In this document: positions 2,886-33,792 of the stretch, in pieces
How positions within the stretch are numbered: the stretch's first letter is position 1
Layout of the letters: each line of letters starts with the position of its first letter
NCBI GenBank assembly: GCA_018335855.1
Contig: JAGXRM010000037.1
Location: forward strand, 62,001-126,000
DNA: 64,000 nucleotides
Reading direction: 5' to 3'
Origin: Clostridiales bacterium
GTDB taxonomy: Bacteria; Bacillota; Dethiobacteria; Dethiobacterales; Dethiobacteraceae
The notes under the pieces: model-generated
What the model saw: the letters and a program-made list of their open reading frames with translations, nothing else
What the model was told of the DNA's origin: nothing
The model's database searches: none
Made by a program: the position numbers and the translations under genes

Positions 2886-2907
2886 CCTTCCACCTCCTTT
2901 TCTTACG

Positions 2908-3050
2908 TAAAAACAATGGCCTCCGCGCAGACACACGGAGGCCATCATTAAATAATCAGATGACATTCCGGCCTCGGCAGGCGACGTAGTCCTTAAGCCC
3001 TTTTGGGCACCTGCTGTCTGCGGTCCGAAAAAAGTATTTACTTTATGTGC
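2908..3050 (-). promoter_or_regulatory. Ribosomal protein L10 leader with attenuator-like hairpin
   Basis: The 209-bp space between rplA and rplJ holds a structured leader in the position of the Firmicutes L10 leader. Its most visible element is a GC-rich stem (2915-2925 pairing with 2936-2946, GGCCTCCG/CGGAGGCC) followed by a short T-run, 20-odd bases before the rplJ ribosome binding site. In this leader family L10 binding controls rplJL expression. The family assignment is from position and shape, not a covariance search. Confidence 0.7.
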
Positions 3051-11977: not shown

Positions 11978-12227
11978 ACAAAAAACCGCCTCAAATCAGA
12001 GACGGTTTGACCGCGGTCCCACCCTGTTTGGGCAAAATTGCCCCACTCATTGCGATTAACGGTCGCTCACGTGCCCTCTTACTTCGGTTCAGAGGACAAA
12101 CTCCAAGGTGCACTTCAGGTTTCATAACCGAGAGTTCCTTCCAGCCGATGGGAACTCCTCTCTGGCGGCATCCGTATAACCTTACTCTTCCTCTTCATCG
12201 TATGTTTGTGTGTTTGTTTATTATATG
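11978..12227 (-). promoter_or_regulatory. T-box leader, cysteine-type, controlling cysE-cysS
   Basis: The minus-strand leader carries the T-box core AGGGTGGGACCGCGG (12011-12025), followed by a terminator hairpin (stem AACCGTCTC / GAGGCGGTT, 11983-12009) and a T-run. Upstream, the Stem I region contains the AGAGAGGAG and GGCTGGAAGGAAC elements. A TGC triplet at 12110-12112, in the GAAGTGCACC context, fits a cysteine specifier codon. Uncharged tRNA-Cys should stabilise the antiterminator. The specifier assignment is by eye. Confidence 0.88.
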
Positions 12228-29047: not shown

Positions 29048-29785
29048 CTATATTTCGTCTTTAATTACTTTCTTTTTGTTTAACCGCTGACTAATGACAA
29101 CTAAGATGATACCAATTTCATAAAGAACTAAAAGAGGAAGAGCCATCATAATCTGAGACACGACATCAGGGGGTGTAAGGATAGCGGCAATCACTACGAT
29201 AAATAACAACGCATACTTCCTTTGGCTTCGCAAAAAAGCCGCGTCTACAATATGTAGCCATCCTAGAAACCAAAATAAAATCGGCAACTGGAAAACCACA
29301 CCAAACGCAAATAAAAAATTTGTTGCAAATGTTAAGTAATTAGAAATGGTGAACATGGCTGTGAGGCCCTCAGAAGCAAATTGCATAAAAAATATTATCG
29401 TATAGGGGAAAACAGTGAAATAAGCAAACGAAATGCCAGCAGTGAAGAAAAGAAGCATGGCTGCCATAACCGGAAGTATAATTTTCTTTTCATTTTTATA
29501 CAGAGCAGGAAAAATGAATGCCAGGAACTGATATGTCAGAACAGGCATGGATATAAGGATACCCGCAATCAGTGCCAGACGGAAATTAGCCATTAACGCT
29601 TCCGGAGGTGAAACGAAAATTAGATCAAGATGTCCGGCCGGACGAGTCAGTATACCCCGTAAGCTGTCTACGGCAGTAAACCCAATAATGGTGGCAATAA
29701 ACAGAGTGATTATACTAATGAACAAACGTTTTCTTAACTCCTCTAAATGATCAAACAGTGTTAACCCGTCCCATTTTTTAGCCAT
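29048..29785 (-). CDS. tatC: Twin-arginine translocase subunit TatC
   Basis: The substrate-recognition core of the Tat pathway that exports folded, often cofactor-bearing proteins. The 245-residue protein has six membrane helices and the conserved N-terminal LFDHLEELRKRL and FVSPPEALMANF-like loop. The best start is ATG 29785 although the AAGGAGG site is about 14 bases away, a long spacing; no nearer in-frame start exists. tatA and a Tat-signal cytochrome lie 3-4 kb away, linked by a shared upstream motif. Confidence 0.95.
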   Translation of the reverse strand: MAKKWDGLTLFDHLEELRKRLFISIITLFIATIIGFTAVDSLRGILTRPAGHLDLIFVSPPEALMANFRLALIAGILISMPVLTYQFLAFIFPALYKNEKKIILPVMAAMLLFFTAGISFAYFTVFPYTIIFFMQFASEGLTAMFTISNYLTFATNFLFAFGVVFQLPILFWFLGWLHIVDAAFLRSQRKYALLFIVVIAAILTPPDVVSQIMMALPLLVLYEIGIILVVISQRLNKKKVIKDEI

Positions 29786-29841
29786 AAAATTCTTTTGTGC
29801 CTCCTTGTATGCGTAATGGCTACACAACATTCTAATTATAT

Positions 29842-30125: not shown

Positions 30126-30353
30126 ATGGACTATTACATTGACGCTTTGGGGGAAATGTGTCCCGTCCCCATTATCAAAGCAGAGTTAAAAATGCTCAAA
30201 TTAAACGCCCATGACAGGGTAATCTTAACAACGGATCACAACTGTTCAACAAGTAGCGTTACGAATCATTTTTATAGCAAGTACCGTTATCCCTGTGAAG
30301 TAAAACGGTTAGATGACGGGATTTGGGAGATTATTATTGAAAAGACTGCTTAA
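30126..30353 (+). CDS. TusA/SirA-like sulfur carrier protein
   Basis: A 75-residue protein with the family signature DALGEMCPVPIIKAELKM, including the reactive Cys of CPxP at residue 12. TusA-fold proteins carry persulfide sulfur (or selenium) between enzymes and are often paired with YeeE/YedE transporters, as here. An AGGGAGG site precedes the ATG. Its last four bases overlap the 3' end of the convergent lysR gene. Which acceptor it serves is unknown. Confidence 0.88.
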   Translation: MDYYIDALGEMCPVPIIKAELKMLKLNAHDRVILTTDHNCSTSSVTNHFYSKYRYPCEVKRLDDGIWEIIIEKTA

Positions 30354-31276
30354 CAGAATCCCCTGTCTTTTGAATATAGAAAGTTTAGGAAAGCAGCATG
30401 ATTTGGTTTTTCTACATTTTCTGCATGAAACAGAGTTGTAAATTCATGCTTGAAGACAAAGTTTTCCACTTTTACTTCTTTTACCATTTTATAATAAAGT
30501 TCCTTACGAACAGCCATTCTTGGAAGTATTGAAACCCCTTTTCCGGCAGCAACGGCAGAGACAATAGCATTAATTGTATTCAACTCTAACACAACATTTA
30601 AGTCGTCCAAAGTAATCCCTCTTATAGCTAACGCCATTTCTAACGTTGTTCGTATACCTGAGCCTTTTTCACGGATAATCAGAGGCATTGTACGGAATTG
30701 ATTGTCAGGCAACATGCCATTAATGTTCTGCCATTTTTCATTATTGGGGACAATCAGAACTAACTCTTTTAACGTCACCCGCTTCGTCTTAATTTTTTCT
30801 GTGTTTAAAGCTTCTCTCGTCTCATTGCAAAGTGGCCCTTCCACCAGCCCCAGGTCAACACGGCGGTTAATTAGTTTCTCGATGACATTTTTTGAATTTG
30901 TAATATCCATTTGTATATTAATATGAGGATACCGTTCTTTAAAGTTATAAACAGTGCAGGGAAGAGCATAATTGCCGATGGTGCTGGACGCTCCCACCGC
31001 CAGTTCATACTCCTGACCTCGAGACCGGTCCAATTCACGTTCAATGTTTTCTCCCAGAGAGAGAATCTTCTGTGCATGTTGGTACACAATCATCCCTGCA
31101 GCTGTCGGCTTAATTCCCTTATTTGTCCTTTCGAGCAGCTTTTCATGATAATATCGTTCAAGTTCCTGGATTTTTACGCTTAGTGACGGCTGGGAGACAA
31201 AAAGTTTTTTTGCTGCTTTAGAGATGCTTCCTGATTCCACTACGACACAATAGGCGTATAAGCTATTAATTTCCAT
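30350..31276 (-). CDS. LysR family transcriptional regulator
   Basis: A 308-residue regulator with an N-terminal winged HTH (YCVVVESGSISKAAKKLFVSQ) and a LysR substrate-binding domain (about 90-295). It diverges from the YeeE/YedE transporter gene and converges on the TusA-like gene, so it probably controls one or both. The 107-bp divergent region contains motif copy B, 25 bp upstream of its start. It could belong to the selenium-associated LysR group, but that needs a family search. Confidence 0.9.
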   Translation of the reverse strand: MEINSLYAYCVVVESGSISKAAKKLFVSQPSLSVKIQELERYYHEKLLERTNKGIKPTAAGMIVYQHAQKILSLGENIERELDRSRGQEYELAVGASSTIGNYALPCTVYNFKERYPHINIQMDITNSKNVIEKLINRRVDLGLVEGPLCNETREALNTEKIKTKRVTLKELVLIVPNNEKWQNINGMLPDNQFRTMPLIIREKGSGIRTTLEMALAIRGITLDDLNVVLELNTINAIVSAVAAGKGVSILPRMAVRKELYYKMVKEVKVENFVFKHEFTTLFHAENVEKPNHAAFLNFLYSKDRGFC

Positions 31277-31383: not shown

Positions 31384-32544
31384 ATGGCAGAAGTTGTGAT
31401 AATTAGAAACCGGGATAAAACAAGCTTTTCTGCCAGTGCTACTCTTTTTGTAATTACTCTTATCGGTTATGAGCTTTACACTTTGCATAACTATGCTTTC
31501 CTGCCTTATATTTTTGGTTTGGCTTTCGGGTATGTGATTCAGCGCTCACGCTTTTGCTTTGCCTCCTGTTTCCGGGATATATTTGTGATCCGCACTGCGT
31601 CCATGACAAGGGCGCTACTTTTGTTGCTTGCTCTTACCACGGTCGGTTTCGCTATCATTAATTTCTTACCCGGCCAGGCTGGGTTGGCTGTAACGGGAAA
31701 AATTTATCCTGTCGGGATACATACCGCTTTAGCCGGCATCTTCTTTGGTTTTGGCATGGTCATTGCGGGTAATTGTGTTTCGGGATGCCTGGTACGCATG
31801 GGAGAAGGATATCTGATGCAGCTTAGCACCTTTGCCGGTCTTTTGTTTGGATCATTACTTGGAGCCTGGCATCTGGATTGGTGGGTCTCTGTGATGATTA
31901 CACCTTCGTGGACATATTTTTTGCCCGATTTATTCAGCTGGCCTGGTGCTCTGATTATTCAGCTTTCCTTGCTTGCTGTTCTGTTCAAATTAACCGCAAA
32001 AATAGACGGTGTCAGTGACCCACTGGCACTGTTCAGAAAGCAACAAGGCGTTCCCATCTGGAGTTATGGAACAGGGGCTGTTGCACTGGCTGTTCTTAAT
32101 ATTCTTATGTACTGGTTATGGGGTAAGCAATGGGGAATCACCGGCGGCATCACGCATATTTCAGGGTGGGCAGCAAATAAAATGGGGATACCTGCTATGA
32201 ACTGGTGGTACTTCAACAATCTCTCCGGGGAAAACGTGGCGGCCAGCTTTCTGAGATACCCTCTTATTTTCTTATCTTTGGGAATGGTGGGCGGCTCTTT
32301 ATTCTCCAGCCTGATTAACCGCGAATTTAAGATACGCCGTCCGAGGACTGCAAAGTATATCTGCGCTGGTCTGGCAGGCGGCTTTATGATGGGCTACAGT
32401 TCAAGACTGGCCTTTGGCTGTAACATCGGCGCCCTGCTTAACGGTATCGGGTCATTGTCAGTGCATGGCTGGGTATTTGGCCTTTTCATATTCATAGGAG
32501 CTATTTTCGGCGGGAAGGTTCTCGTACGCTACGTAATTAGCTGA
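31384..32544 (+). CDS. YeeE/YedE family sulfur/selenium transporter
   Basis: A 386-residue membrane protein with about ten helices. It shows the family patterns GYVIQRSRFCFASCFRD, GNCVSGCLVRMGEG and LAFGCNIGALLNG with conserved cysteines in the membrane region. Members transport thiosulfate or related sulfur compounds, and some are linked to selenium metabolism. Pairing with a TusA-like carrier supports that role. An AAAAGGAG site precedes the ATG; a terminator lies 100 bp past the stop. Confidence 0.88.
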   Translation: MAEVVIIRNRDKTSFSASATLFVITLIGYELYTLHNYAFLPYIFGLAFGYVIQRSRFCFASCFRDIFVIRTASMTRALLLLLALTTVGFAIINFLPGQAGLAVTGKIYPVGIHTALAGIFFGFGMVIAGNCVSGCLVRMGEGYLMQLSTFAGLLFGSLLGAWHLDWWVSVMITPSWTYFLPDLFSWPGALIIQLSLLAVLFKLTAKIDGVSDPLALFRKQQGVPIWSYGTGAVALAVLNILMYWLWGKQWGITGGITHISGWAANKMGIPAMNWWYFNNLSGENVAASFLRYPLIFLSLGMVGGSLFSSLINREFKIRRPRTAKYICAGLAGGFMMGYSSRLAFGCNIGALLNGIGSLSVHGWVFGLFIFIGAIFGGKVLVRYVIS

Positions 32545-32766: not shown

Positions 32767-32949
32767 ATGATCTCTAAAATTGGCCTGCCCGAACTGCTCG
32801 TGGCTTTTGCTGTAGCACTGCTCGTATTTGGTCCGTCAAAGCTGCCGGATATCGGTAAGGCTTTTGGCCGCGGGCTTCGTGAATTCAAAGATGCCACAAA
32901 GGAGATTTCTCAGAGTGTTTCTGATGCTCAGGAAGAAGAAATTGTCTAA
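32767..32949 (+). CDS. tatA: Twin-arginine translocase subunit TatA
   Basis: A 60-residue protein with one N-terminal membrane helix, the [21 protein letters not shown] hinge and amphipathic helix when read in pieces, and an acidic tail. It forms the Tat pore. It lies 36 bp upstream of a Tat-signal cytochrome gene, so translocase and substrate are probably made together. AGGAGGTG precedes the ATG. Confidence 0.95.
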
Positions 32950-32985: not shown

Positions 32986-33792
32986 ATGGCTACATGCGAA
33001 GAAAAGATTTTATCAAGAAGGAAACTCCTGCGTAATGCAGGTGTCTCCCTGGCCGGAATCACCCTGGCGAGCTCCATGGGTTTTTTATCAGGATGCTCCA
33101 ATCAGGCTGCTCCGGTACCGGCAACAGTAGCAGAACCCGCTGAAGTACCTGTCCCGGTATGGCCTTTAAGTTACGTGAAACTGGATCCCGCTGCAGCTGA
33201 GCAAAAAGCTTATGCCGCTTATAAGGAGGACGGCTGAGGCTACGGTGCTGCTGAGGGGGTCCTCGGCTATTTGGCAGAAGAAGTGGGTTATCCGTTCAAC
33301 CAGATCCCGTCAGAAGGCTTTTCTGCATTTAAATCCGGTATCCACGGATGGGGGTCCATTTGCGGTGCGTTAGTTCCGGCAATCTACGCGATTACACTGG
33401 TTGCTGAAGGTGACGAGCAAAAAGATATGGTTAACGAACTGATGGCTTGGTACAAAGACACCCCGTTCCCCATCTACCAGCCAAAAGGGCTTAATCTGCC
33501 CACCACCGTGGCCGACTCCAGTCTCTGCCACGTCTCCGTAACTAAATTTATGCAGTTATTGGATATTCCCCGCGATGATCCGCAACGGAGTGAACGTTGT
33601 GGCGGTCTGACTGCAGATGTGGCGAAATTTACTGTGGCCATGCTAAACGACTTTGCCGACAAGAAGTTAGCGACCGGCGTATTCAAGCCATCCGCAGTTG
33701 TGGGCGAATGTATGGCCTGTCACAGCAAAATGGAATGGGCTCACGGCAAAGAAACGTGCACATCCTGCCATGGCGACCCACACAACGATTAA
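32986..33792 (+). CDS. Tat-exported split-Soret-type dihaem cytochrome, selenocysteine-containing
   Basis: Read through the in-frame TGA at 33235-33237 as selenocysteine, this encodes 268 residues. The N terminus has a twin-arginine signal (SRRKLLRNAG) with a lipobox-like LSGC. The middle (residues 84-170) is a C_GCAxxG_C_C-like domain in which selenocysteine replaces the first Cys (DG-Sec-GYGAAEGVLGYL) and a later Cys is kept (GSICGAL). The C terminus has two haem-binding CxxCH motifs (CMACH, CTSCH). This architecture matches split-Soret cytochrome c of sulfate reducers. Both halves are in one frame, and homologous residues run on immediately after the TGA. A strong hairpin follows the TGA. 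Alternative: a nonsense-mutated gene, which is less likely because both sides are well conserved. Confidence 0.85.
33235..33267 (+). promoter_or_regulatory. Sec codon and bacterial SECIS-like hairpin
   Basis: TGA at 33235-33237 is followed after 12 bases by a 7-bp stem GCTGAGG / CCTCGGC (33250-33256 with 33261-33267; one G-U pair) with a GGGT apical loop. The loop lies about 20 bases past the TGA and holds guanines, as expected for SelB recognition. Confidence 0.75.

Follow-up and report, generated by a model that had tools for sequence, protein, structure and literature searches.

The window analysed here is a 64,000-nucleotide stretch of a Clostridiales bacterium genome of the class Dethiobacteria (GenBank assembly GCA_018335855.1, contig JAGXRM010000037.1, positions 62,001 to 126,000 of the forward strand). 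It contains a gene whose product is, judging from sequence comparison, very probably a split-Soret dihaem cytochrome c with selenocysteine (Sec) inserted at residue 84. Taken by itself, the insertion of Sec at UGA codon 84 appears nearly certain. The gene consists of a coding part (32986–33789) followed by a TAA stop codon (33790–33792), and a single TGA lies in frame, as codon 84 of 268. The first-pass annotation of this DNA had described a TGA flanked by coding sequence, with a twin-arginine (Tat) signal upstream and the SICGAL motif and two CxxCH motifs downstream. All of these elements were found, the twin-arginine motif by eye along with a lipobox that the annotation had not mentioned, and the sequence downstream of the TGA is under purifying selection. 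The features of the gene and its neighbours are listed in Table 1.

Protein family and residue 84 in homologues

The read-through protein matches the split-Soret cytochrome c of Desulfovibrio desulfuricans ATCC 27774 (PDB entry 1h21; NF047622) in a phmmer search (E = 2e-37), and the predicted fold matches the same entry with Foldseek (E = 1.3e-13, template modelling scores 0.67/0.74). The mean predicted local distance difference test value of the model is 73.9, with low confidence in the signal and haem segments. Split-Soret cytochromes are further marked by stacked bis-His haems, a homodimeric state and a non-haem iron centre. The two proteins can be aligned over about 200 residues and share the four Cys/Sec positions, both CxxCH sites and the His after Cys181. 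The differences are that 1h21 has Cys at position 84, where the window protein would have Sec, and that the window protein has a lipobox. The Pfam domain C_GCAxxG_C_C (PF09719) was recognised with 47.5 bits, which passes the gathering score of 27. The twin-arginine motif together with the lipobox suggests a Tat-exported lipoprotein; both motifs recur in most homologues, with the lipobox missing from some. The genome also encodes cytochrome c assembly proteins.

Homologues were found in 15 genomes among 60 relatives, 14 of the 15 having exactly one in-frame TGA. Within the window's class (98 genomes), exactly one in-frame stop, a TGA, is present in 17 of the 20 clear homologues, and 76 loci came from scanning 84,980 species genomes. 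The combined alignment has 80 rows scorable at column 84, of which 21 carry TGA, 59 carry Cys and none carries anything else. The first-pass annotation had placed the TGA at the first Cys of a C_GCAxxG_C_C-like domain and had named the lack of Cys or Sec at the aligned position as evidence to the contrary; Cys does align there in the Desulfovibrio split-Soret cytochromes, including 1h21, and Cys or TGA occupies the position in every scorable homologue. The three other invariant Cys residues are kept in every row spanning them. Conservation of the haem Cys and His residues extends to all rows except for one early-ending sequence (L032). Within the window's class, position 84 of the split-Soret cytochrome is usually Sec.

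Downstream of the TGA, the comparison of the window gene with its homologue L035 gave a non-synonymous divergence (dN) of 0.06–0.07 and a synonymous divergence (dS) of 1.3–1.5, the latter near saturation, and hence a dN/dS of about 0.04–0.05. Since 21 homologues share the TGA and the sequence past it is under strong purifying selection, the in-frame TGA is more than a chance occurrence. Translation with table 11 does terminate at residue 83, in keeping with a pseudogene, an assembly error or a true stop with an 83-residue product. However, the identical TGA occurs in independent assemblies from several phyla, and the selection described above extends beyond it, so we assign this explanation next to no probability and, in practical terms, discard a truncated or dead gene.

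The Sec forms in Bacillota belong to Dethiobacter and other Bacillota metagenome-assembled genomes (MAGs). Beyond Bacillota, they were found in Desulfonatronum, Desulfonatronospira, Desulfonatronovibrio, a MAG labelled Desulfovibrio (L037) and one Thermoflexia MAG (L058). In the tree, the main set of Sec forms makes up one clade (support 100/100) with a pair of Cys forms nested inside. The Thermoflexia form (L058:3423), whose genome contains selB, stands separately and is apparently a separate Sec form. Three changes between the Sec and Cys states were counted on the tree, fragment L109 being left out because column 84 is missing from it. Two arrangements of neighbouring copies were also observed: genome G006 has a Sec and a Cys cytochrome in tandem (L031/L034; G006:C13:19556-21226), and a Desulfonatronum MAG has two neighbouring Sec split-Soret genes (L049:5286-9694).

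Hairpin downstream of the UGA and decoding of the codon

Exactly 12 nt after the TGA, the arms 33250–33256 and 33261–33267 (GCTGAGG/CCTCGGC) can form seven pairs, one of them G-U. This is the 7-bp hairpin with a GGGT loop that the first-pass annotation had pointed out, and it was confirmed as a putative apical hairpin of a bacterial selenocysteine insertion sequence (SECIS). With the UGA numbered 1–3, the stem occupies positions 16–22 and 27–33, and the Sec homologues are gap-free after the UGA. Across 20 Sec homologues, 93.6% of the stem cells are paired. Changes on both sides of a pair occur at three pairs (18–31, 19–30 and 21–28) and amount to 16 cells, compared with 4.1 in shuffles; the stem covariation is 0.354 versus 0.150 in shuffles, and none of 500 shuffles scored as high. 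Sliding the partner strand by one to three columns lowers the pairing to 58% or less, and RNAalifold recovers the identical stem unprompted. At pair 19–30, where G-C is exchanged for C-G, the upstream partner is the first position of a Glu/Asp-or-Gln codon and the other partner is the third position of a later codon, one that specifies Leu in all C-G cases; such a linked exchange is difficult to attribute to protein constraint.

On average, 6.4 of the 7 stem pairs are formed in the Sec homologues and 4.3 in the Cys homologues. Synonymous shuffles gave p = 0.015 for the window and a combined value of 2.3e-5, which is overstated because the homologues are related. Two held-out homologues, outside the stem alignment, keep 7 and 5 of the 7 pairs, and the Thermoflexia form L058 has a different, longer and stronger hairpin. 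As in the SECIS of Escherichia coli fdhF, GGUCU is found at the same distance from the UGA (+22 to +26) in 12 of 21 Sec homologues, and the loop G23 is present in 20 of the 21; the window differs from fdhF in having GGGGU at +22 to +26 and a 4-nt loop. No SECIS model of Rfam matched, either across the window or in a 161-base segment surrounding the UGA. The evidence for the window hairpin as a putative SECIS is comparative.

The UGA would be decoded by SelB and tRNA-Sec, guided by this hairpin. The search for selA, selB and selC suggested in the first-pass annotation located all three in the window's own genome: a tRNA-Sec with the anticodon UCA, and selA (578.5 bits) and selB (384.9 bits), adjacent on contig 20. 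Among the class genomes bearing a homologue, selB is above the cut-off in 15 of 16, the exception being a 90% complete MAG (G029); one of the selB-bearing genomes (G016) carries the Cys form only. Moreover, selB is present in 5/5 genomes reached through the loci, some of which are the same organisms as the class genomes.

A second match above the cut-off of the tRNA-Sec model (L002:1501-1594; G000:C32:16609-16698) is a 94-nt tRNA-Cys of the selC* type with the anticodon GCA, so the presence of two selC genes in the genome was rejected. Such tRNAs are a known kind in anaerobic Firmicutes, and some of them have the anticodon UCA (PMC7609411). This tRNA speaks for a UGA read as Cys (or Trp) by another tRNA instead of Sec, but with the anticodon GCA it does not read UGA. 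In addition, the normal tRNA-Sec(UCA), SelA and SelB are present, the SECIS-like hairpin is conserved, and TGA terminates 6 of the 42 long open reading frames of the window and so is no general sense codon. Decoding as Cys or Trp is thus very improbable.

Several observations weigh against a Sec-containing split-Soret cytochrome. The NCBIfam split-Soret model NF047622 scored 183.4 bits against a cut-off of 400, and the C-GCAxxG-C-C model TIGR01909 scored 24.3 bits against a cut-off of 47.4, both remaining below the threshold. By the former score the window protein is placed outside the NF047622 equivalog (Desulfovibrio type), yet by its alignment it is a homologue of the split-Soret cytochrome. 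The gene is absent from a genome of the same genus (G001). At +24 the loop reads G in the window and U in E. coli fdhF, and the folding energy of the window hairpin as a single sequence is ordinary (z = −0.8).

Table 1. Features of the probable selenocysteine-containing cytochrome gene and of its neighbourhood (positions within the window)
Feature	Position	Strand	Evidence or remark
Split-Soret dihaem cytochrome c, very probably Sec-containing	32986..33792	+	268 aa read through TGA; homologous to 1h21
UGA codon 84, almost certainly read as Sec	33235..33237	+	Cys (59) or TGA (21) in 80/80 scorable homologues
Twin-arginine signal SRRKLL (residues 10–15) and lipobox L34-S-G-C37	32986..33096	+	By eye
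Putative bacterial SECIS apical hairpin, 7-bp stem, loop GGGU	33250..33267	+	Covariation in 20 Sec homologues
Cys126 of the (S)ICGA motif (SICGAL), second of four invariant Cys/Sec	33361..33363	+	Homologue alignment
Cys181 (LCHVS), third invariant Cys	33526..33528	+	Homologue alignment
Cys205 (ERCGG), fourth invariant Cys	33598..33600	+	Homologue alignment
Haem c site CMACH (residues 242–246)	33709..33723	+	Sequence and homologue alignment
Haem c site CTSCH (residues 258–262)	33757..33771	+	Sequence and homologue alignment
tatA, just upstream of the cytochrome gene	32767..32949	+	PF02416, NF011430
YeeE/YedE-type sulphur or selenium transporter; GNCVSG motif with Cys, not Sec	31384..32544	+	PF04143, E = 1.8e-53; partial NF033796 selen_YedE_FdhT
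LysR regulator near the selenium-metabolism LysR model	30350..31276	-	NF040786, 230.6 bits vs cut-off 250
TusA-like sulphurtransferase	30126..30353	+	PF01206; weak to YedF TIGR03527
tatC	29048..29830	-	PF00902

Possible role of Sec84 and gene neighbourhood

The gene product can be pictured as a split-Soret dihaem cytochrome c that is exported by the Tat system and anchored to the membrane. Sec84 would replace the first of the four invariant Cys residues, which probably together make the non-haem iron centre of this fold. Outside the membrane, the protein would most likely transfer electrons or carry out redox reactions with a small compound of sulphur or selenium. Its two haems would act as a wire, and Sec84 may raise the reactivity of the Cys3-Sec site or tune its potential.

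The location of Sec84 at a Cys/iron site is fairly probable. The title of the PDB entry 1h21 names a non-haem iron centre. Abreu et al. are said to have reported an iron-sulphur electron paramagnetic resonance signal in 2003, together with a structure without the iron centre. As the only solved structure reportedly lacks this centre, the role of Sec84 as a ligand is one that we infer, and the point counts against it. A tentative and rather unlikely assignment is that Sec84 serves as a selenolate ligand of the non-haem iron centre (possibly [2Fe-2S]); the exported protein would then hold a natural iron site of the Cys3-Sec type, in electrical contact with a pair of stacked haems.

The set of tusA, LysR, YeeE and tatA genes upstream of the window gene recurs beside the homologues L042, L043, L045 and L048. 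The closest homologues, L035 and L036, are without this set and are surrounded by multihaem c-type cytochromes. Downstream of the window gene, the opposite strand carries an Hdr/FlpD-type electron-transfer cluster. The neighbourhood indicates extracytoplasmic redox work and names no substrate.

These neighbours also bear on a different role, in which Sec84 would be a catalytic selenolate and not a metal ligand. It would attack a sulphur or selenium substrate delivered by YeeE/TusA (of the polysulphide, thiosulphate or selenite type), with electrons passing via the haems. Such a role opposes the metal-ligand proposal only and leaves the insertion of Sec untouched. It agrees with the position of YeeE, TusA and the selenium-type LysR beside the gene in the window and several relatives, and the exchange of Cys for Sec is common at catalytic redox Cys residues. 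However, this context is not universal, as L035 and L036 illustrate, and we know of no substrate for any split-Soret cytochrome. A catalytic selenolate is possible, though somewhat less likely than not.

In genome G022, a gene of the YeeE type close to the Sec cytochrome (L143:7990-9203) is split into two parts. It was rejected as a further Sec gene, since the two parts are not in the same frame and its motif has Cys.

Relation to known selenoproteins

The 119 prokaryotic selenoprotein families compiled in a 2026 review include C-GCAxxG-C-C forms 1 and 2 and the cytochrome ExtKL (PMC13188914). The word "Soret" appears nowhere in this census, and no paper linking split-Soret with selenocysteine or selenoprotein was found in the part of the literature covered by our search. 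Forms 1 and 2 (PF09719/TIGR01909) have the four-Cys domain in common with the window protein and are likened to it by family, the review being silent on the position of Sec. In the related genomes G020 and G023, which belong to the window's class, stand-alone C-GCAxxG-C-C proteins have a TGA at the first Cys, in the place homologous to Sec84 (L158:1501-1833, minus strand; L159:1501-1839, plus strand). These proteins are small and without haem sites in the stretch examined, whereas the window protein combines an export signal with two haem c sites. ExtKL (GSU2937 + GSU2936) is another c-type cytochrome whose coding sequence contains a TGA in frame, but it is multihaem and does not have the split-Soret fold (PMC1914089).

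Because stand-alone C-GCAxxG-C-C selenoproteins are already listed and those of G020 and G023 have Sec at the first Cys, the window protein represents a known kind of selenoprotein in a haem-fused, exported form. The first-pass annotation had proposed that Sec next to c-type haems would be a rare redox centre. The occurrence of Sec beside haems is supported; its rarity must be qualified, as Sec has been catalogued in ExtKL and in stand-alone C-GCAxxG-C-C proteins (PMC13188914) and is usual at this position in the window's class.

The Sec is placed in a dihaem protein that has a homologue of known structure, so that what Sec does next to an iron centre could be tested directly, and natural Sec/Cys pairs such as the tandem copies of G006 are available for comparison. 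Under the standard code, the gene is truncated at residue 83 in Dethiobacteria and in alkaliphilic Desulfovibrionales. Elsewhere in the window, the Rfam scan detected a T-box leader (11995-12207, minus strand) and an L10 leader (2903-3041).
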